Shown here: in pieces, positions 6,452 to 52,863 of the stretch
Numbering within the stretch: the stretch's first letter is position 1
Layout of the letters: each line of letters opens with the position of its first letter
IMG/VR virus record: IMGVR_UViG_3300044638_004964
Coordinates: 1 to 64,000 of that record
DNA: 64,000 bases
Reading direction: 5' to 3' (one strand)
Source of the DNA: a virus
Notes under the pieces: model-generated
Seen by the model: the letters and a program-made list of their open reading frames with translations, nothing else
Told to the model about the DNA's origin: nothing
Databases searched by the model: none
Program-made: the position numbers and the translations under genes

Positions 6452-6523
6452 GGCCCCATAGTTAAATGGATATAACAACTTTCTTCTAAAAAGTGATTAG
6501 GGGTTCGATTCCTCTTGGGGCTA
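6452..6523 (+). tRNA. tRNA-Arg (UCU)
   Basis: A full cloverleaf folds: acceptor GGCCCCA (6452-6458) with TGGGGCT (6516-6522), discriminator A 6523, D stem GTTA/TAAC, anticodon stem ACTTT/AAAGT with loop CTTCTAA, anticodon TCT at 6485-6487, and T stem AGGGG/CCTCT closing loop TTCGATT. CCA is not encoded. It reads AGA, the favoured Arg codon in most genes here, so it probably supplements the host pool. The next ORF starts 5 bases after it. Confidence 0.93.
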
Positions 6524-6827: not shown

Positions 6828-7108
6828 TGAAAATACAAACAACAGCAACATATGAGTATGATCTTGTGCGTACTTGTTTTGCTTGCCCAGAACAATACGA
6901 AGTATATGATAAAAATAATAAACGAGTTGGGTATCTCAGACTCAGACATGGAGAATTTACAGCGGAGTATCCATACTGTGGCGGGAAAACAGTTTATGAG
7001 TCGTATCCAGATGGAGATGGAATCTTTGAAGAATATGAAAGAATGTTTGAACTAACAAAAGCTATAGAAGCAATTCATGCACAGCTAGTTATAGATAATA
7101 AAATATGA
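6827..7108 (+). CDS. hypothetical protein (93 aa)
   Basis: The sequence suggests a compact alpha/beta domain: C-F-A-C-P-E-Q-Y-E-V-Y-D near the start, G-Y-L-R-L-R-H-G-E-F-T, and a C-terminal helix. No family was recognised. It overlaps the previous stop by one base and the next start by four. Confidence 0.6.
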   Translation: MKIQTTATYEYDLVRTCFACPEQYEVYDKNNKRVGYLRLRHGEFTAEYPYCGGKTVYESYPDGDGIFEEYERMFELTKAIEAIHAQLVIDNKI

Positions 7109-7248
7109 TAGCACAAGTTTCTATAGTTCGTCGCCCAATATGTCCGACATTTATTCATGATGACACAACAAGAATAATAGTATGTTTAATTGGATTAATT
7201 GTTTGCTGCACGATCTTTTACAAGATAGCAAAAAATTTTAATAAGTAA
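7105..7248 (+). CDS. single-pass membrane protein (47 aa)
   Basis: ATG 7105 overlaps the preceding TGA and TAA is at 7246-7248. Residues 24-40 form a hydrophobic segment (I-I-V-C-L-I-G-L-I-V-C-C), followed by a short basic tail. Coupling to the upstream gene supports it. Confidence 0.5.
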   Translation: MIAQVSIVRRPICPTFIHDDTTRIIVCLIGLIVCCTIFYKIAKNFNK

Positions 7249-7903: not shown

Positions 7904-8253
7904 GGGCCAGTAAAGGTATCGACAGGTAAAATAGATATAAACTGCATTAACTGGTTAATCGAATGGCCAGTATAAAAATCGATTAAAACTGTTAATTGGC
8001 GAAGTAACTCTCGCTCTCGCTGCCTAATTAATTAGGTAATGAGTGGGGCGGCATGAGCCTTATTACCAAATCATGCTGACGCAGATAATCTGATATGGTA
8101 GCCTTACCAGACATAAATAGGGATGATGATTGTACTCAATCTGACTCAGATAATTCTGATAGCTTTGTTAATTGTGCGATAACAACTAACTAATAATGTA
8201 GAAGTTTATATTGATGTTTATTCTGGACAGGGGTTCGACTCCCCTCTGGTCCA
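7904..8253 (+). ncRNA. ssrA: tmRNA (transfer-messenger RNA)
   Basis: tmRNA rescues stalled ribosomes by charging with Ala and then encoding a degradation tag. The ends form a tRNA-like domain: GGGCCAG (7904-7910) pairs with CTGGTCC (8246-8252), discriminator A 8253, and T arm AGGGG-TTCGACT-CCCCT at 8229-8245. The 5' side carries TATCGACAGG, matching the conserved tmRNA 5' segment, and ATAAAC (7937-7942) can pair with GTTTAT (8216-8221) as helix 2. The tag frame is at 7998-8027. The 350-base length is typical. CCA is not encoded. No promoter is obvious, so it may be processed from a longer transcript. Confidence 0.93.
7998..8027 (+). other. tmRNA tag reading frame, peptide GEVTLALAA
   Basis: From resume codon GGC (7998-8000) the frame reads G-E-V-T-L-A-L-A-A and stops at TAA (8025-8027). 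The A-L-A-A end is the classic protease-recognition signal. In established tags a Gly-Glu start is known from Bacteroidetes (for example GENNYALAA), and a Gly start also from some others, whereas Ala is commonest. The resume codon is inferred from the tag pattern, not measured. Confidence 0.8.
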
Positions 8254-8258
8254 CTGTT

Positions 8259-8523: not shown

Positions 8524-8801
8524 TTCTAATGTGGTTCTCACATAAAGGTTGAGATTAAATCTGACGCCGATTCCCCAATAAGGAAATAAAAGCAGAGCCA
8601 CGTTCAAACTGGTACAATATGTCTGGAACCAAAGCTTAGGTATAACTTTTATGATTACTTACCGATAGTGAGGTAATGATGTTTTATTGGGGTAGTTATC
8701 GACCTATACTGAGATTGATCAATCAATTGCGAAAAATGGATATGCGAACAATCCATCCAATAGCATTTAAATCCACGCTTGTTCGTAAAAAAGAGGGTAA
8801 C
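8524..8801 (+). other. 278-base non-coding stretch with inverted repeats
   Basis: I see no supported gene here. CCCCAATAA (8573-8581) is exactly complementary to TTATTGGGG (8684-8692). TTACC/GGTAA forms a hairpin near 8660-8675, GATTGATCAATC is a perfect 12-base palindrome near 8713, and TGGAT/ATCCA forms another hairpin near 8738. A TACAAT-like -10 lies near 8614 without a good -35. It may hold a small RNA or a folded leader of the following gene. Confidence 0.4.
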
Positions 8802-9095
8802 ATGTCACTAGTTTATAATGTAACCGCTGGGCCAGTTGTAGATAACGATGTTGTCGAGCGTAGGCTAACAGTAACTGTTAATGGTGAAGTATCACAGGTA
8901 GCCACAAACTCAAATGATACTACTTCATTCGGAGAGTTTTCCTTTGCAGAAAATGACAACGTTGTTCTAACACTGGTTGACGTTGATGATGCTGGAAACG
9001 TAAGTTCCCCAGCAGTATTAGAGTTTACCGCTGCCGATACCATTCCTCCAGCAAAGCCGGGAGAATTTGGAGTAACTTTGGTACGAGAAGAGTAA
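8802..9095 (+). CDS. Ig-like beta-sandwich protein (97 aa)
   Basis: The start at 8802 is chosen for the GAGGG site; an in-frame ATG at 8676 would put the structured region into coding sequence. The product is one beta-sandwich by pattern (L-T-V-T-V-N-G, F-S-F-A-E-N-D, V-V-L-T-L-V-D-V-D-D-A-G-N) with no signal peptide, resembling Ig-like or FN3-like modules on virion surfaces. It is followed by a strong terminator. A minor virion or decoration protein is the best guess. Confidence 0.55.
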   Translation: MSLVYNVTAGPVVDNDVVERRLTVTVNGEVSQVATNSNDTTSFGEFSFAENDNVVLTLVDVDDAGNVSSPAVLEFTAADTIPPAKPGEFGVTLVREE

Positions 9096-9119
9096 AAAAG
9101 TCAATTTATTGGCACAGAT

Positions 9120-9147
9120 AAGGGGATAGCCAATTGGCTATCCCTTT
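9120..9147 (+). terminator. hairpin terminator
   Basis: GGGATAGCCA (9123-9132) pairs exactly with TGGCTATCCC (9135-9144) around a two-base centre, followed by TTT. The palindrome may work for both strands. It lies 25 bases after the Ig-like gene. Confidence 0.65.
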
Positions 9148-9174
9148 ACTGTTATATGGAAAGGTGTATATAGT
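9145..9174 (+). promoter_or_regulatory. possible sigma70-like promoter
   Basis: TTTACT (9145-9150) and TATAGT (9169-9174) are separated by 18 bases, immediately after the terminator and about 40 bases before the protease gene. Confidence 0.45.
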
Positions 9175-9212
9175 ATTGGTAATTTCATAACTGGCACCGA
9201 AAGGATATCGCC

Positions 9213-9983
9213 ATGAAAAAGCTAATATTAATACTTTTCTGTCTATTTCTAGAGAATAATTTGATAGCTGGCACAATAGATCAAAACGTGCCAGATTCTA
9301 AATATGTTGAATATGGCGATAAGCATGAGTCAGTAGTAAAGCAAGAAGGAAATCACGACAACAAGGATAATACATATTTTTACGCATCAGCAGTAATTAT
9401 TAAACCTAGATGGTTATTAACCGCCGCCCACGTAATTAAAGGTAGTAAAAATTGTAGAATTGTTGTTGGTAAAAAAACTATACCAATAGACTTCATAAAG
9501 CATCACGCCTCATATGAAGAAAATAAATTTGGAAAATACGATATTGGAATAGGGCATTTAAAAGAAGATGCTGACATATCTTTTTATCCAGAATTATATA
9601 GTAAAAATGACGAAGTTGGTAAGATTTGTAGCATGGCTGGATATGGTATTACTGGAACATTTCAAAGCACAGAAAGAAAAGTAGACGATCTAAAAAGAGC
9701 GGGATCAAATATAATAGAAGCAACCGACAAAGACTTATTGATATGTTCTTTAAAGGATGGCCCAAGAACCAGTTTAGAATTCTTAATATGTCATGGTGAC
9801 AGTGGTGGTGGTTTATTCATAGATAAAAAACTAGCAGGAATAAATTCTTGTATTCTTACGGAAGATAAAAAATTAGATTCAAATATTAATGATTGGTCAG
9901 GACACACCAGAGTTAGTTTATTTATTGATTGGATAAAAGAGGTAATGGATACCATAGAAAAGGCAGAACAAGCCAAACCATGA
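9213..9983 (+). CDS. exported trypsin-like serine protease
   Basis: A signal peptide (residues 1-19) leads to a chymotrypsin-fold domain with the complete triad: His73 in L-T-A-A-H-V, Asp110 in K-Y-D-I-G-I and Ser197 in C-H-G-D-S-G-G-G. At 256 residues it is a single catalytic domain without an obvious PDZ. It would act outside the cytoplasm after export. It has its own promoter and GAAAGGA site. Exported S1-type proteases are rare in phages; roles could include superinfection exclusion, envelope processing or lysis. The G-D-S-G-G core makes the family assignment firm. Confidence 0.88.
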   Translation: MKKLILILFCLFLENNLIAGTIDQNVPDSKYVEYGDKHESVVKQEGNHDNKDNTYFYASAVIIKPRWLLTAAHVIKGSKNCRIVVGKKTIPIDFIKHHASYEENKFGKYDIGIGHLKEDADISFYPELYSKNDEVGKICSMAGYGITGTFQSTERKVDDLKRAGSNIIEATDKDLLICSLKDGPRTSLEFLICHGDSGGGLFIDKKLAGINSCILTEDKKLDSNINDWSGHTRVSLFIDWIKEVMDTIEKAEQAKP

Positions 9984-10303
9984 TTTTTCAAAAACTACTA
10001 CAGTATTTTTTCAGAACAGACGAATATGGTGCTAGGTCGCCACGATGGGCTATAATAAGGAGAGAGCATCTAGAAAATAATCCACGCTGTGCAGCATGTG
10101 GAAGAAATAAAAAGATAGAGGTTCATCATATAAAACCATTTCATTTAAATCCAGAATTAGAATTAGATCCAAATAATTTGATTTCTTTATGCGACGATCC
10201 TTGTCACTTTGTGTTTGGTCATTTAATGAATTATAGGAGTTGGAATACCAATGTTATCGAAGACTGTAAAAGATATCTTGACAGAATTAAAAATAGGCCA
10301 TAA
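9980..10303 (+). CDS. HNH endonuclease (107 aa)
   Basis: The start at 9980 overlaps the protease stop. The product has the HNH core: C-A-A-C-G, V-H-H-I-K-P-F-H, an N-L-I-S-L-C segment and D-P-C-H. The size matches short free-standing HNH nucleases, including those near phage packaging genes. As no terminase is in sight, a homing or accessory nuclease is the safer reading. Confidence 0.8.
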   Translation: MIFQKLLQYFFRTDEYGARSPRWAIIRREHLENNPRCAACGRNKKIEVHHIKPFHLNPELELDPNNLISLCDDPCHFVFGHLMNYRSWNTNVIEDCKRYLDRIKNRP

Positions 10304-10385
10304 ATTTTATATAGTATTGAGTATACAGGGTTTTTGTTTAGGATATATGATTGGATTTTTAATGTCTTATTTTGAAATTCTATAA
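10251..10385 (+). CDS. small membrane protein overlapping the HNH gene (44 aa)
   Basis: ATG 10251 lies within the 3' end of the HNH gene in another frame, follows AGGAG by 10 bases, and runs to TAA 10383-10385. Residues 19-40 are hydrophobic (F-Y-I-V-L-S-I-Q-G-F-C-L-G). The overlap is about 50 bases, more than usual here, so this is tentative. It fills an otherwise empty gap before the next promoter. Confidence 0.4.
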   Translation: MLSKTVKDILTELKIGHKFYIVLSIQGFCLGYMIGFLMSYFEIL

Positions 10386-10392
10386 CTTGCTA

Positions 10393-10421
10393 TTGACAAA
10401 ATTGACTTGGTGGGCTATCAT
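10393..10421 (+). promoter_or_regulatory. sigma70-like promoter
   Basis: TTGACA (10393-10398) and TATCAT (10416-10421) are spaced by 17 bases. The transcript should start near 10428, so the ATG at 10428 would be leaderless and the ATG at 10458 is preferred. Confidence 0.65.
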
Positions 10422-10457
10422 AGTTAGATGCAAGCTCACCCAAAAGAAAAATTGAAC

Positions 10458-10721
10458 ATGTTAGACTTAAGAGAATACAACAAAGCTCCCTCTAGTTATT
10501 TAGAGGATAAGCAAAAAATTAAAAAATTGATATCAGATGTTGGTTATAAACATCTTCTTGAATATCTTATCGAAGATATAGATAACTATGAAATCCTTGG
10601 TCACGATGACTTATGGATATTAAGGATGGCAGAAAGTCTAGAAGATGCTTACAATGTATTTATGCAAAAGTATAAGGACGAAGACAACATAGATAGTAGG
10701 ATAACACCAAATGAGAATTGA
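10458..10721 (+). CDS. hypothetical protein (87 aa)
   Basis: This helical, acidic protein (D-L-R-E-Y-N-K-A-P-S-S-Y and later E-S-L-E-D-A-Y-N-V-F) lacks membrane segments or known motifs. The ATG at 10428 is an alternative start that adds ten residues. It is the first gene of the thyX operon. Confidence 0.55.
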   Translation: MLDLREYNKAPSSYLEDKQKIKKLISDVGYKHLLEYLIEDIDNYEILGHDDLWILRMAESLEDAYNVFMQKYKDEDNIDSRITPNEN

Positions 10722-11067
10722 TCATGCATTAAATGTTAAGGTTGGAGATCATCTAATGAATACATTCTTGGATGATGTTGTTGTAACCAGTATATACAAA
10801 GAAGGTGGAGTCATTGTGTTTGGCACAATCGACACAAGACTAAGACAAGTAGCTTACTCTTATGATTATGTATACTTAGTCGATATTGGTCCAAATGATA
10901 TTTCTGATGAAGAATCTAGTTTTATAAATTGGGCTAGAGAAAATAGAGAAAGCATAGAAGAACAGTTAGAAAATCTAGATTTAATAAAACGGTCTTATAT
11001 GCAGGGGTTTGGCATGGGCTATGCTTACAAAAAAATAATGTCCCATGAGGAGTTAATGCAGAAATGA
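10711..11067 (+). CDS. hypothetical protein (118 aa)
   Basis: The N-terminal 60 residues form a probable beta-barrel (V-K-V-G-D-H-L, V-V-V-T-S-I-Y, V-Y-L-V-D-I) and the remainder is helical. It overlaps neighbours by 11 and 4 bases, so it is co-translated with thyX. Function unknown. Confidence 0.6.
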   Translation: MRIDHALNVKVGDHLMNTFLDDVVVTSIYKEGGVIVFGTIDTRLRQVAYSYDYVYLVDIGPNDISDEESSFINWARENRESIEEQLENLDLIKRSYMQGFGMGYAYKKIMSHEELMQK

Positions 11068-11720
11068 GCTATGTAAAATTAATCAGCATTACCGCAGACT
11101 GCGAAAAACTAATGGCATACTGTGCTAGAGTCTCAAATCCAAGCGGACAAAATAATGACAGTATTGCAAAACTCTTAAAGTATTGCATCGCTCATGAACA
11201 TTGGAGTATTTTTGAGCAGGGCTTTATGACAGTAGAGATTAATACTACAAGAGGTATTGCCGCACAGATTCTTCGTCATCGTAGTTTTACGTTTCAAGAG
11301 TTTAGCCAAAGGTATGCTGACGCTACGCTTTTATCAGAGGATATTCCACTTTTTGAATTAAGGCGACAAGACAACAAGAATCGCCAGAATAGCATAGATG
11401 ATATATCTAATGAGACTAAAGTAAAATGGAATGCTCAAATTCGTGAACATTTTTCTAAAGCCAAGGCTATTTATGATGGCATGATTGCTGATGGAATAGC
11501 TAAAGAGTGTGCAAGATTTGTATTACCATTAGCTGTTCCAACAAGATTATATGTTAGCGGTTCAATAAGATCATGGATTACATATATAGCATTAAGAGAA
11601 AAGCACGGTACTCAAAAAGAACACATTGATATTGCTAAAGGCTGCAAAAATATATTTTGCCAGCAATTACCATTAACTTCTGAAGCTTTGGGAGGGTTTG
11701 AAAAAGAATGGTGTATATAA
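11064..11720 (+). CDS. thyX: flavin-dependent thymidylate synthase
   Basis: ThyX makes dTMP from dUMP using methylene-tetrahydrofolate and FAD with NADPH. The hallmark RHRxxSxxxxSxR region is present in expanded form at 71-83 (R-H-R-S-F-T-F-Q-E-F-S-Q-R), with the usual H-W-S-I-F-E-Q segment before it and A-R-F-V-L-P after it. Its 218 residues are normal length. It supplies dTMP for phage replication along with the RNR, dUTPase, dCMP deaminase and dNMP kinase in this window. An HNH gene follows directly. Confidence 0.93.
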   Translation: MSYVKLISITADCEKLMAYCARVSNPSGQNNDSIAKLLKYCIAHEHWSIFEQGFMTVEINTTRGIAAQILRHRSFTFQEFSQRYADATLLSEDIPLFELRRQDNKNRQNSIDDISNETKVKWNAQIREHFSKAKAIYDGMIADGIAKECARFVLPLAVPTRLYVSGSIRSWITYIALREKHGTQKEHIDIAKGCKNIFCQQLPLTSEALGGFEKEWCI

Positions 11721-48068: not shown

Positions 48069-49673
48069 ATGTTGAATTGGTGCCCACTAAGGAATTACAC
48101 TCATTACAGTTTATTGAGGGGTTTTTCAAAGCCAGACGAGTTAGCAGCAAAGTGTAAAGAAGAAGGATATACTGCTTGCGGTATTGCTGATTATAAGACA
48201 ATATCTGGGGTTGTATCTTTTTATCAAGCTTGTCAAAAGAATGGGATAAAACCTATCATTGGTTGCTCATTTGATGACTGCGCTTTGTTTGCTAAGAATA
48301 GTGCCGGTTGGCATGATCTTATTCACCTAGTATCATCTATAGATGATGAAGGTAATATATCTAGCACTATTTGGTCAAACACTCTAAAGAAGGGCAATGT
48401 AATAAAGGTGTCTAATGATGCCTCACTATTTCCCATTAGTTATTATGTTAAAAAAGAAGATGCGACATTGCATCGTATACTATTATGCTCTGAATTAAAA
48501 ACCACACTTCCAAAGATTCAGAAACAAATACGCAATGGTGATCTACCAAAAGATATAGAATATCAATTTACTCACGACGATAAAAACGTTTGGTCAAAGG
48601 AAGAGGCACAAAAAGCAATTAGCTCAACATCATCCAAAAATCTAGATAATATTTCTAGTATTATAAATGAGTGTGAGAGCTATAATATTCTAAGCAAGCC
48701 CAATCTTCCAAAGTTCGCTTGTCCAAATAATCAATCAGAAGAGGATTATTTGAAGGAACTATGTCGCGTTGGCTGGAAAAATATATTAATAGATGGTGAT
48801 AAGGTTTCTAAACCAGAAGATAAAGAAAAGTATCTAGAAAGATTCAAGGAGGAATTTGATGTTATTAAGGGTGCTAATCTATTCGGTTATTTCCTCATTG
48901 TTAGAGACATTATACACTATTGCGAAAGTCAAGGTTGGTTGTGTGGTCCCGGTAGAGGTTCAGCGGCTGGATGCCTAATCTCATATCTTATTGGAATCAC
49001 AAAGATTGATCCAATAGAATTTGACCTACTGTTTGCTAGATTTTATAATGCTGGGCGAAATAGTGAGGACCATATCTCACTTCCAGATATTGATATGGAC
49101 GTTCCCGGCAAGAAGCGTGACGAAGTTATATCTTATCTTAAGAATAAATATGGTCATGATCACGTTAGTCAAATGATTTCGTTTGGTAGGCTACAGGGAA
49201 GAAGTGCTATAAAAGAAGTTTTACGCATAAATGAAGCGTGTTCTTTTGGTGAAATGAACACTATAACAAAGAGTATTCCTAACGAAGCTGAAATTTCTGA
49301 CCAACTTGCCGACATGGATGACGATAATAGATCTATTATACGTTGGGCACTAATTAATAATGCCAATGAATTAAGGGATTTTTGCCACATAAACGAAGAT
49401 GGTAAGCTAGAAGGAAATTATGCTGAGTATTTTGATCAAGCTATAAAGATTGAGGGAACATTTAAAACACAGGGAAAACACGCCGCCGGTGTTGTTATAT
49501 CAGCTAAGAAATTGAATACCGTTTGCCCGATGGTTAAGCAGCGTGATTCATCTGAAAAGATTGCGGGATTAGAAATGGCAGACCTAGAAGCTCTAGGACA
49601 TGTCAAGTTTGACGTTCTAGGAATTAATTTACTAGATAAAATTATGATGATACAAGACTTAACTGGAGTATAA
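48069..49673 (+). CDS. dnaE-N: DNA polymerase III alpha, N-terminal piece
   Basis: The 534-residue protein covers the PHP domain (N-Y-T-H-Y-S-L-L, G-I-K-P-I-I-G) and the C-family palm. G-P-G-R-G-S-A-A-G (293-301) is the conserved nucleotide-binding segment; P-D-I-D-M-D provides catalytic Asp340 and Asp342, and K-F-D-V-L-G the third, Asp515. It stops with D-L-T-G-V at the palm-to-fingers border, where E. coli DnaE continues. The rest is encoded at 51301-52863. No intein motifs are present at the end. The PHP metal residues are partly altered. Confidence 0.92.
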   Translation: MLNWCPLRNYTHYSLLRGFSKPDELAAKCKEEGYTACGIADYKTISGVVSFYQACQKNGIKPIIGCSFDDCALFAKNSAGWHDLIHLVSSIDDEGNISSTIWSNTLKKGNVIKVSNDASLFPISYYVKKEDATLHRILLCSELKTTLPKIQKQIRNGDLPKDIEYQFTHDDKNVWSKEEAQKAISSTSSKNLDNISSIINECESYNILSKPNLPKFACPNNQSEEDYLKELCRVGWKNILIDGDKVSKPEDKEKYLERFKEEFDVIKGANLFGYFLIVRDIIHYCESQGWLCGPGRGSAAGCLISYLIGITKIDPIEFDLLFARFYNAGRNSEDHISLPDIDMDVPGKKRDEVISYLKNKYGHDHVSQMISFGRLQGRSAIKEVLRINEACSFGEMNTITKSIPNEAEISDQLADMDDDNRSIIRWALINNANELRDFCHINEDGKLEGNYAEYFDQAIKIEGTFKTQGKHAAGVVISAKKLNTVCPMVKQRDSSEKIAGLEMADLEALGHVKFDVLGINLLDKIMMIQDLTGV

Positions 49674-49674
49674 A

Positions 49675-50280
49675 ATGGCCACTCAGTGTGGAAAATATAT
49701 TGGTCAAAAATTTGGAATGTTAACTGTTCAAAAAATTACTAGTAAAACCAAAAAATCTCATTATAGGGCCGAATGTTTGTGTGATTGTGGTAATACTGTT
49801 ATACGCCGCATAGATTCTCTAGTACACGATAAATCAAAAAGTTGTGGGTGTTCAGCATTCAAAACAGGGTGCGAACATGCCTTATATAGAGGATACGAAG
49901 GTTTGAGCCTGAGACGCTGGTCTAAAATCAAAACAATGGCAAAAGATCGTGGATATAATGTCAAAATAGATATTAAATATGTCTGGGATTTGTATGAAAA
50001 ACAGGGAAGAAAATGTGCGATAACTGGAGTTCCCATTATCTTCTCTAAACAAAACAAAGACAATGTTGGCACAACAGCATCTTTAGATAGGATAGATAAT
50101 AATAGAGATTATATTGAAGGAAACGTACAGTGGGTGCATAAACGTATAAACATAATGAAAGGTAATATGAATACAAATGAATTTTTAAATATTTGCGAGG
50201 CTGTAGTTGCAAAAAATAAAGAAGAAGATATATTTGAGACACCAGTACACTATACAAGAAAGATGTTTTATGGCAAATAG
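49675..50280 (+). CDS. HNH homing endonuclease inside the split polymerase locus
   Basis: ATG 49675 is two bases after the polymerase stop and uses GGAG from its last codons. The protein has the N-terminal zinc motif (C-L-C-D-C-G-N, C-G-C-S) and a C-terminal core with C-A-I-T-G, T-A-S-L-D-R-I-D-N-N and V-Q-W-V-H-K-R-I-N, the same family as 15946-16479. It probably invaded the polymerase locus by homing. Confidence 0.85.
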   Translation: MATQCGKYIGQKFGMLTVQKITSKTKKSHYRAECLCDCGNTVIRRIDSLVHDKSKSCGCSAFKTGCEHALYRGYEGLSLRRWSKIKTMAKDRGYNVKIDIKYVWDLYEKQGRKCAITGVPIIFSKQNKDNVGTTASLDRIDNNRDYIEGNVQWVHKRINIMKGNMNTNEFLNICEAVVAKNKEEDIFETPVHYTRKMFYGK

Positions 50281-50950
50281 AGATTATATTATATTCGACT
50301 TTGAAACAGGCTCAAGAAATCCTCACAAAACCCAACCAACTCAGATTGCAGCAATAGCTCTAGATGGTAGAAACTTATCAGTTAAGGGACAATTTAATAG
50401 TGAAATCAAGCCCATATTTGACGATGAAGAGGCTATATCTCTTGGGCTAGATCCACTTCAAGATGAAGCTTTAAAGATAACTGGAAAAACTAGAGAGGCT
50501 CTAGCTGAAGCTCCCTCAATTAAATCAGTATGGTCTAAATTTGTAAAGTTTGTTGATCAATATAATTGGAAGGGTGATCCATTTTTTGCTCCAATTCCAG
50601 TTGGATTTAATATCCTTGGTTTCGATATGCACATTGTTAATAGGCTATGTAGAGAATATGGTCCTTGGGATAAAGAGCGAGAACAACAAAAACTATTTAG
50701 TAAAGTCTATAAAGTTGATATCATGGACAATGTTTTCGTATGGACAGAAAGTGATCCATCAGTTAAGTCTATTAGCATGGATTCGCTACGAGAAAGAATG
50801 GGTCTTAGCAAGGAAAATGCTCACGATGCTCTACAGGACGTTAAGGACGAGGCCAATATATTTATCAAGCTCATGAAAACCCATAGATCTGTTTATCAGA
50901 ATATTACTTTTGATAAAGCTTTTGCTAATGGTGGACTGTATGTTAAATAA
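50270..50950 (+). CDS. DnaQ-like 3'-5' exonuclease
   Basis: The start at 50270 overlaps the HNH gene by 11 bases; upstream starts in frame are ignored. The DEDDh motifs are complete: Asp10/Glu12 in F-D-F-E-T-G, Asp119 in N-I-L-G-F-D, and His185/Asp190 in H-D-A-L-Q-D. At 226 residues it is a stand-alone proofreading domain like the E. coli epsilon subunit. Its place between the two polymerase pieces suggests it proofreads for them. Confidence 0.9.
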   Translation: MANRDYIIFDFETGSRNPHKTQPTQIAAIALDGRNLSVKGQFNSEIKPIFDDEEAISLGLDPLQDEALKITGKTREALAEAPSIKSVWSKFVKFVDQYNWKGDPFFAPIPVGFNILGFDMHIVNRLCREYGPWDKEREQQKLFSKVYKVDIMDNVFVWTESDPSVKSISMDSLRERMGLSKENAHDALQDVKDEANIFIKLMKTHRSVYQNITFDKAFANGGLYVK

Positions 50951-51308
50951 AGTTTGCAACAAGTGTAAAAAGGAATTACCAATTGAACATTTTAGCAAAC
51001 ATAGCGGCAGCAATTATTTAAGACCAGAATGTAAATCTTGCAATAATTTGCTAAGTAAAATACGAAGCAGTCTCAGGAAAAAGCATGAAACCCCTCCAGA
51101 AAATTATCAATGTCCAATTTGCAATAGAAGCGAGCATGAGATATCTTCTGGTGGAGGAAATAAAAAAAGCAAGTGGGTGCTAGACCACAATCACCAAAAT
51201 AATAATTTTAGGGGATGGTTATGTCACACATGTAATATGGGTATAGGTTCTTTTTCTGATAATATTGATACATTGTACAAAGCTATAGAGTATTTAAAAA
51301 ATGATTGA
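50940..51308 (+). CDS. endonuclease VII-type HNH nuclease
   Basis: The start at 50940 overlaps the exonuclease stop. The 122-residue protein has an N-terminal zinc site (C-N-K-C, C-K-S-C) and the endonuclease VII core D-H-N-H, then G-W-L-C-H-T-C-N, I-G-S-F-S-D-N. T4 endo VII resolves branched DNA, and this family also includes homing nucleases. Its stop overlaps the second polymerase gene, whose ATG is 51301. Confidence 0.8.
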   Translation: MLNKVCNKCKKELPIEHFSKHSGSNYLRPECKSCNNLLSKIRSSLRKKHETPPENYQCPICNRSEHEISSGGGNKKSKWVLDHNHQNNNFRGWLCHTCNMGIGSFSDNIDTLYKAIEYLKND

Positions 51309-52863
51309 CTACAACGACAAGAAGACTTGGCAATTATTTGCAGAAGGTAAAACTAAGGGTATCTTTCAGTTAGAAAGTAATCTTGGTAAGGCTTGGGCTA
51401 AAAAAGTTGCTCCAACAAATATTGAAGAATTATCTGCTCTTATTGCTATTATTAGACCGGGAACGTTAAAAGCTTTCGTTGATGGAAAGTCTATGACCCA
51501 GCATTACGTTGACAGAAAGCACGGCAGAGAAGAGGTTGTATATTTGCATGAATCTCTGGAAGAAATCTTAAAGCCAACGTATGGGGTTCTAGTTTATCAA
51601 GAGCAGTCCATGCGTATAGCTCAAAAGGTCGCTGGCTTCAATCTACAAGAGGCCGACGTTCTTCGTAAGGCCATTGGAAAGAAAAAGGCTGACCTCATGA
51701 ATGAAGTTAAGAAATCATTTATTGAGGGGTCACAGCGAGTTGGAATGGTAACAAAGGAAGAAGCGGAACAGATTTTCGGATGGATTGAGAAGTCTGCACG
51801 ATATGCTTTCAATAAATCCCACAGTATATCTTATGCCGTATGCTCATATTGGAGTGCCTATTATAAAGCCCACAATACTCCAGAATTCTTTTTATCGTAT
51901 CTGTATTATGCTAATGAAAAGCAAGATCCACACCAAGAAGTTTATGAACTTATTTCTGAAGCAAAGCTATTTGATATACAGGTAAGAACACCTAGTCTTG
52001 CCAATTTCGATACAAAATTTAACTTTAGACATGGGAAGATATACTTTGGGATTAAGGATATCAAATCTCTCACTGGTAAAACTGGCGATAAATTGATAGA
52101 AGCGGTCGAAGAATCAGAAAAGCTTGCTGGTAAAAAAATTACTAAATTCTCATGGTTAGAGTTATTGATATATTTTAGCCCCAATATAAGTTCCACTTCT
52201 TTTAAAGCTTTAGCCTCAATTGGTTTTTATAGAGACTTTGCAGAAAAGATTAGTAGAAATAAAGCGCTGTATGATTATGATATATTTAAGAATTTAACAC
52301 AGGCTGAGAAAACTTGGGTTTTAACTCAATACCCGACTAAAAAGTGGTCAACATTTATGGATTGTTTGAAGGATTTGGCACCAACTAAAAAAGAAGGTGG
52401 TGGAACTAGCAAAGCCGATAGAAGACAATTTATAGAGAATGAACTACAATTATTAATAAATCCACCATACGACTTGGAGGATGAACCAAGCTGGTTAATA
52501 GATCAAGAAATTAAATTCTTAGGCTGTCCAGTTACAATGACTAAAATTGAAACATCCGATACTTCCGCAGCTAATACAACATGTAAAGATGTTGTTAACG
52601 GAAAAAAGGGTAAGGACTTGTGCATAGTTGCCAATGTCCAAAGAGTTTCGGATTATAAAATAACAAAGGGTGAATCAAAAGGCCAAATGATGTCATTTCT
52701 AACAATAGAAGATGATTCATGTATCCTTGATAGCGTTATAGTATTTCCAAAAGTTAGAGATAAGTACAAATATGTGCTTTACGAAGGAAATAATCTAATT
52801 TTCTGTGGGAATGTAGCCGACCACGACTCGTCCTTTATAGTGAACCAAATTCATGAGATTTGA
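51301..52863 (+). CDS. dnaE-C: DNA polymerase III alpha, C-terminal piece
   Basis: The 520-residue protein begins M-I-D-Y-N-D-K-K-T-W, which aligns with the P-L-D-D-K-K segment of E. coli DnaE, directly after the point where the first piece stops. It continues through the fingers domain (I-F-Q-L-E-S, R-P-G-T-L, A-F-N-K-S-H-S at 169-175) to an OB domain (C-I-V-A-N-V, V-I-V-F-P-K). The cyanobacterial split-intein site is at the F-N-K-S-H-S segment, which is intact here. It must assemble with the N-terminal piece to give an active polymerase. Confidence 0.92.
   Translation: MIDYNDKKTWQLFAEGKTKGIFQLESNLGKAWAKKVAPTNIEELSALIAIIRPGTLKAFVDGKSMTQHYVDRKHGREEVVYLHESLEEILKPTYGVLVYQEQSMRIAQKVAGFNLQEADVLRKAIGKKKADLMNEVKKSFIEGSQRVGMVTKEEAEQIFGWIEKSARYAFNKSHSISYAVCSYWSAYYKAHNTPEFFLSYLYYANEKQDPHQEVYELISEAKLFDIQVRTPSLANFDTKFNFRHGKIYFGIKDIKSLTGKTGDKLIEAVEESEKLAGKKITKFSWLELLIYFSPNISSTSFKALASIGFYRDFAEKISRNKALYDYDIFKNLTQAEKTWVLTQYPTKKWSTFMDCLKDLAPTKKEGGGTSKADRRQFIENELQLLINPPYDLEDEPSWLIDQEIKFLGCPVTMTKIETSDTSAANTTCKDVVNGKKGKDLCIVANVQRVSDYKITKGESKGQMMSFLTIEDDSCILDSVIVFPKVRDKYKYVLYEGNNLIFCGNVADHDSSFIVNQIHEI

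Follow-up and report, generated by a model that had tools for sequence, protein, structure and literature searches.

How does a phage replicate when the gene for its replicative DNA polymerase is broken in two and other genes lie between the pieces? The question is raised by a stretch of viral DNA of 64,000 nucleotides (nt) (positions 1 to 64,000 of IMG/VR record IMGVR_UViG_3300044638_004964; hereafter the window), in which a C-family DNA polymerase III alpha subunit (DnaE) is encoded by two separate open reading frames (ORFs), dnaE-N and dnaE-C. A first-pass annotation of this DNA had described palm and fingers on separate chains and the absence of an intein. By sequence both points stood, while the three genes that fill the 1.6 kb gap between the halves had been missed: an HNH-type ORF, a conserved DEDDh exonuclease and an endonuclease VII-type gene (Table 1). 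The exonuclease gene is the conserved core of the arrangement. What is new here is this interposed gene, the apparently single old origin of the split and its retention across a whole, widespread clade of uncultivated phages; among the top matches of the open-licence literature searched, none described an exonuclease gene between DnaE halves.

Table 1. Genes of the split dnaE locus in the window
Feature	Coordinates	Strand	Evidence and remarks
dnaE-N	48069..49673	+	PHP domain (some metal ligands lost) and palm with catalytic D340, D342 and D515; C-terminus QDLTGV
HNH-type endonuclease ORF	49675..50280	+	Insert in junction 1, probable mobile passenger; no Pfam or NCBIfam match
DEDDh (DnaQ/epsilon-type) 3'-5' exonuclease, 226 amino acids	50270..50950	+	ATG at 50270; Pfam RNase_T 1.3e-13
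Endonuclease VII-type gene	50940..51308	+	Insert in junction 2, probable mobile passenger; Pfam Endonuclease_7 3.6e-15 (scanned from second codon)
dnaE-C	51301..52863	+	Fingers domain followed by a probable helix-hairpin-helix and OB region

That the two ORFs jointly cover a DnaE was confirmed by their coordinates, their lengths (534 and 520 amino acids) and their Pfam domains. DnaE-N matched DNA_pol3_alpha (PF07733; 2.3e-69) and PHP (1.7e-19), and dnaE-C, whose start and the stop of the gene before it overlap, matched DNA_pol3_finger (PF17657; 7.7e-49). Within the window's dnaE-C, HHH_6 stayed below the cut-off and no Pfam OB match was obtained; the relative L190 has a dnaE-C in which HHH_6 and an OB family both score above cut-off, and the C-terminus in the window is probably of the OB type as well. 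Aligned to E. coli DnaE, N corresponds to three stretches within residues 8-564 and C to residues 590-852, and these limits place the break in the palm-fingers linker, downstream of the third catalytic Asp and ahead of the fingers. The best NCBIfam whole-DnaE scores, 346 bits for N and 277 bits for C against a cut-off of 1002 for PRK05673, are as expected because each ORF is a half. Since membership is judged by fold and catalytic core and not by a single polypeptide, the locus is a split member of the C family.

Little is lost at the break, as had been noted before. The spacing from KxDxLG to FQxE is 45-50 residues, mostly 46, in the 83 of 90 outgroup ORFs matching this pattern (the other seven include two from phage phiST and L254), and in the window the 16 residues on N after KxDxLG and the 21 on C before FQxE sum to 37, about nine being missing. 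Across 127 clade sequences this sum ranges from 35 to 48 in the subgroup of the window and from 66 to 78 in a second one, the L079 subgroup. DnaE-C of the latter (L079 7908-9527 and relatives) carries an extra N-terminal stretch that is absent in the window's subgroup and holds a CGC motif which, in four aligned members, looks metal-binding.

The arrangement was traced by four scans of viral contigs, which contributed the best 80 of 162 confirmed loci, the best 80 of 240, the best 80 of 119 and all 7, for a total of 244 loci including one from the window's own record and one from an annotated phage; the list of genome contigs covered 80 of 572. Deduplication removed only exact sequence copies, so near-copies stay among the 156 viral loci left. 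The order N-exonuclease-C on one strand was found in 154 of these without a single violation, the remaining two (L043, L212) being cut by contig ends. When the scan was seeded with the exonuclease only (best 80 of 119), N and C were adjacent in 78 of 80 loci, and the other two end at a contig end. Fused versions were sought among the relatives, and no two of the three parts lay in one ORF in any of 238 loci. A stop lies within the N match in four of the 238 (L160, L161, L167, L169), and because it falls inside the first ten codons a later N start is likely there. Of 90 other C-matching loci, from bacteria and other phages, 87 were found with a similar script to have N and C in one ORF; the exceptions are L254 and two phiST records, and L089 was tallied as fused despite a further break downstream. 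At less than 85% identity in C the clade comprises 80 distinct lineages, window included. Recurrence of the same arrangement in 154 of 156 deduplicated loci indicates that the split is neither chance nor an assembly error, the latter having been named at the outset as a possible undoing of the two-chain reading. The exception L254 (1-12310) belongs to the clade and carries all three genes, on contig JABXKB010000087.1, binned with a Lokiarchaeota metagenome-assembled genome; it is either an archaeal virus or a binning error.

Two trees bear on the origin of the split. In the first, the split clade lies on one side of a branch with a Shimodaira-Hasegawa-like approximate likelihood ratio (SH-aLRT) support of 99, with 36 outgroups taken from the 90 loci. 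The second, with 19 clade rows and with four outgroup rows (including phiST) omitted for being long or gappy, supports the clade branch at 100/100 and requires at least three split/fused changes, one each for the clade, Mycobacterium phage MrMiyagi and Corynebacterium phage P1201. Most likely a single split occurred in the common ancestor of this large clade of phages; some lines may have re-fused.

Residues expected of a working enzyme are retained on all three chains. In an alignment of 127 sequences (126 loci and the window, 28 further loci being omitted as incomplete or in pieces), D340, D342 and D515 of the palm in N and D10, E12, D119, H185 and D190 of the exonuclease were each invariant (127/127), and in the fingers of C the motif YQEQ occurred in 127/127 and FNKSH in 126-127/127 per position. 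The invariance of the palm and DEDDh active sites persists down to about 42% identity in C. The ratio of nonsynonymous to synonymous substitution rates (dN/dS) for N, exonuclease and C, window versus five relatives, was 0.013-0.103 in 10 of 15 comparisons. AlphaFold single-chain models of N and C reached mean predicted local distance difference test (pLDDT) values of 90.1 and 89.4, and their top-ranked Foldseek matches were Pol III alpha or PolC structures (best E 5.5e-34 for N and 4.9e-21 for C), with template modelling (TM) scores by query length of up to 0.74 for N and up to 0.65 for C. Chains with OB folds rank behind DnaE and PolC among the matches of the C model. The best PHROG match of the exonuclease was PHROG 192, 'DNA polymerase exonuclease subunit' (9.8e-25).

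This is also the only polymerase seen. The window's 106-kb record holds one PF07733 palm match and one place similar to C, and neither PolA nor PolB was detected in it, so that a full-length polymerase elsewhere, which would have spoken against the first-pass annotation, did not appear in that record. Each of 12 long clade records (133-231 kb) likewise has one palm and one fingers match in separate frames, and PolB was found in none of them (0/13 with the window's record). The window also encodes a DnaB-type helicase, a Toprim primase, a UvsX/RecA-like protein and a single-stranded DNA-binding protein (SSB).

Based on these data the two-chain reading is well supported by sequence, and we consider it highly probable that the locus specifies a non-covalent N/exonuclease/C replicase, that is, one proofreading C-family polymerase which is the sole replicative polymerase seen in the phage record. 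Three chains would be translated from neighbouring, often overlapping genes; the overlapping stop and start codons fit coupled translation. Alpha-N (PHP and palm), the DEDDh exonuclease and alpha-C (fingers, helix-hairpin-helix and OB) would then assemble without covalent joining, and the active site, with its three palm Asp on N, would close only upon docking of the C fingers. N and C would thus form a physical complex with polymerase activity, for which the exonuclease would proofread. A further and more tentative idea, which we regard as possible but rather doubtful, is that the exonuclease is a built-in middle subunit: the replicase would be an obligate three-chain enzyme, assembled co-translationally in gene order, in which the exonuclease contacts both halves near the palm-fingers linker, a linker apparently broken at least three times independently in phage dnaE.

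Several observations weigh against a three-chain replicase. One of the parts is itself in pieces at 11 of 154 loci, with inteins in L051 and L190 and apparent frame breaks in L121 and L130. In 5 of the 15 comparisons dN/dS was not computable, and elsewhere dS was high (0.79-4.28). The correlations of pairwise distances (N-C 0.94, N-exonuclease 0.95, exonuclease-C 0.97) largely reflect shared ancestry. The fit of the C model to DnaE chains is no better than moderate (0.47-0.65 in TM by query length), and the first tree was a quick one in which long outgroup branches meet the clade. For none of the virus records is there an estimate of completeness; a further polymerase could therefore be encoded beyond their bounds, and the phage could still be copied by the host enzyme. 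Lastly, the PHP part of N is sharply divergent between the window and L002: in blocks of 60 the first 240 residues (48069-48790) are 48-72% identical and the rest 92-98%, the first 240 being either a mosaic or a fast-evolving PHP part. Swapping of N and C halves between lineages, suspected from dN, was dropped as an explanation, the divergence being confined to those 240 residues.

Among the alternatives, the one that survives best leaves N and C as the polymerase and gives the exonuclease another job, so that it merely travels along. The tie between exonuclease and polymerase is drawn from sequence, and a distant relative of the exonuclease stands alone in Bacteroides phage SJC03. Set against this, the exonuclease lies between the halves in 154 of the 154 loci that hold all three genes, in many of them it overlaps N or C at its start and stop codons, and its best PHROG match is a polymerase subunit. 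We judge an unrelated role to be unlikely.

A second alternative is a recent event in this phage, in which an intact dnaE was broken up by mobile endonuclease genes in the manner of nrdA and mobE in phage Aeh1. In the window both junctions do carry endonuclease genes (the first presumably of the HNH type, a label given from a sequence motif), and inserts of more than 250 nt occur at the N|exonuclease junction in 20 of 154 loci and at the exonuclease|C junction in 38. Both junctions are nevertheless tight (30 nt or less) or overlapping at 22 of the 154 loci, and the 19 of these 22 that could be placed in the tree all fall in the window's subgroup. Because these 22 loci are split without an insert at either junction, homing-endonuclease splitting, which had been offered as a parallel, does not seem to explain the break. 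Inserts, mapped as present or absent on the tree built from 127 C sequences, require at least 15 and at least 16 changes, versus one for the split. In L002 junction 1 is empty next to a gene already split: dnaE-N ends DLTGVKNG and overlaps the exonuclease start, where N of the window ends DLTGV before the HNH-type gene. The first codons of the endonuclease VII-type gene, ATG TTA AAT, are also those of L012 dnaE-C; this insert may thus have taken over an old dnaE-C start. A recent split of this kind is therefore very improbable, and the HNH and endonuclease VII genes appear to be passengers that entered both junctions later and repeatedly. An ancient endonuclease, since lost, could have made the first break.

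Across the loci the cargo at the junctions varies and includes HNH and endonuclease VII-like genes (by eye), an FkbM methyltransferase, a NaeI-like nuclease, ThyX and a DUF1559 prepilin-like gene. The exonuclease|C gap extends to 2.6-3.6 kb with several ORFs in L128 (with the DUF1559 gene) and L134 (with ThyX). DUF1559 is common in Planctomycetes; as an indirect hint to the host it was not used as evidence. The 67 sequences of the L079 subgroup have an N|exonuclease gap of 146-873 nt and, in 64 of them, an exonuclease|C gap of 30 nt or less; the former gap in L079 holds a 60-amino-acid ORF (7051-7233) for which no NCBIfam match was found.

It is scarcely credible, in the third place, that the split gene is decaying and a host polymerase copies the phage. 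A host DnaE would be at hand, and the PHP metal ligands are partly lost in about half of the sequences, window included, but purifying selection acts on N, exonuclease and C, the palm and DEDDh residues are unchanged in all 127 sequences, and primase, helicase, SSB and RecA-like genes lie nearby.

The last alternative is that N and C are rejoined, by an intron in the messenger RNA or by a (split) intein, the final enzyme being one chain. At the gathering score Rfam matched only transfer RNA (tRNA) and transfer-messenger RNA (tmRNA) in the whole window and no intron model, and at E values up to 5 it gave two sub-threshold, unrelated matches in 49500-51500 and nothing intron-like; the intron feared by the first-pass annotation had no family match at the junction. 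The absence of an intein, which it had asserted, was borne out: Pfam matched no intein domain in N or C of the window, and the 16 and 21 residues at their ends are too short for intein halves. In L051 Pfam placed the N half of a split intein below the cut-off and missed the C half, so that its silence is weak evidence and the exclusion of an intein rests on the lack of room at the N end and C start. Where inserts are lacking, neighbouring genes of the three share a few bases; in L027 the stop of the exonuclease gene overlaps the dnaE-C start. The 22 loci with tight or overlapping junctions leave no space for an intron, and both these and the multi-ORF gaps point to separate chains. Frameshifting or readthrough that would fuse N to C was rejected, as the exonuclease gene intervenes. 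Although inteins exist elsewhere in the gene family (apparently split in dnaE-N of L051 and L234, in frame in dnaE-C of L190), rejoining in a locus whose gap is occupied by a conserved exonuclease gene is the least credible of the four.

In those relatives, dnaE-N is broken again within the palm (GPGRG|S; L051 3579-6343, L234 4766-7826), with an endonuclease-like ORF between the apparent intein halves, a layout which we take to be a 'fractured gene'. The L190 intein (8695-11094; Pfam Intein_splicing 5.5e-12) interrupts dnaE-C at a place where L168 and L240 are interrupted as well.

Other features of the record may be mentioned briefly. For the sliding clamp, PF00712 gave no match in G000 and PF02767 none in any of the 12 long records, the searches not extending to clamps of the T4 type. 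Two tail-type matches were obtained from seven large ORFs in the rest of the record, and a search with PF07068 (gp23) was uninformative since no control genome matched. A tmRNA gene lies at window positions 7904-8256 (Rfam E 2.2e-36); ARAGORN gives only a tRNA-Arg at 6452-6523.

A non-covalent N/exonuclease/C replicase would matter in more than one respect. Replicative polymerases are usually regarded as a single indivisible catalytic chain, and here a whole phage clade departs from this with its only detected replicase. The natural halves offer a ready-made split polymerase for studying assembly and proofreading, and the two junctions document, in natural genomes, how mobile endonucleases invade the spaces that separate subunit genes.

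Comparison with known split polymerases places the break itself in company. It had been stated that no described phage DnaE with this split was known; gp59/gp58 of P1201 and gp83/gp84 of MrMiyagi overturn this, both breaking the same linker by sequence, and Mycobacterium phages Fowlmouth (gp85/gp86) and Cuke (gp86/gp87) have deposited homologous pairs. By sequence, the split site is not unique to this phage. As the linker is also broken in two further groups of cultured phages, the joint between palm and fingers looks like something that the structure of C-family polymerases can do without.

Like the clade, MrMiyagi has a two-gene DnaE with no intein annotated, and so do Fowlmouth and Cuke, which were judged by deposited annotation and not by junction residues. 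Unlike the clade, MrMiyagi and Cuke have nothing between the halves, their genes overlapping by 4 nt. MrMiyagi stands apart from the clade in the tree, and because its relative Indlulamithi (62% identical) is annotated as one gene the mycobacteriophage split appears to be recent. P1201 also has separate, overlapping genes, without an exonuclease between them; it lies in the tree apart from both the clade and MrMiyagi, its relative C3PO is annotated as one gene, and its split may be a sequencing frameshift. In four PHROG polymerase families a single profile matches both the N end and the C start, which indicates that these are fused at the palm-fingers linker.

Phages with dnaE in more than one gene, as in the clade, also include Cellulophaga phage phiST (gp044/gp045), Bacillus phage G (gp329/gp339) and Alicyclobacillus phage MMB025, whose breaks lie elsewhere, in or near the palm or within the fingers, with homing endonuclease or other genes between the pieces in phage G and MMB025. 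The pieces of phage G (L341), at least two, are separated by 6.6 kb that includes a homing endonuclease among other genes; the stretch from the palm GRGS to the third Asp was not found. Further possible split or broken cases (BFVD match list; L345) are Pseudomonas phage PA5, with a 569-amino-acid 'DNA polymerase III alpha subunit' matching the C model, and Staphylococcus phage MVC_VPHSA1, with five consecutive coding sequences annotated as DNA polymerase.

Cyanobacterial DnaE is split at a different site. It has two genes, as the clade does, but they are rejoined by an intein, which is absent here. The exonuclease domain of gp43 is internal. According to PMC2988022, gp43A and gp43B, the two split chains in Aeromonas phage 25, are active and purify together, and the split NrdA of Aeh1 works, which provides a precedent for assembly from separate chains; like the window, these are two-chain phage enzymes with endonuclease genes at the split. 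They are a family B polymerase and a ribonucleotide reductase, with no exonuclease gene interposed, unlike the clade.

As far as the consulted part of Iyer et al. 2021 (PMC7824862) goes, group 2.2 jumbo phages encode a minimal Pol III alpha in two proteins thought to reassemble; there the genes are distant, the domains minimal and PolB is present alongside, whereas in the window and its clade the genes are adjacent, PHP is present and PolB was not found in 13 of 13 records. A survey of about 2000 bacterial genomes (PMC3919608, consulted in part) reports intein-split cyanobacterial genes, fragmented sequences and exonuclease domains built in elsewhere. In PolC and Bacteroidetes DnaE1, as described in that part of the survey (PMC3919608), an exonuclease is tied to a C-family polymerase as in the clade; it is fused there within PHP or at the N-terminus of one chain, whereas in the clade it is a separate gene in the palm-fingers gap.

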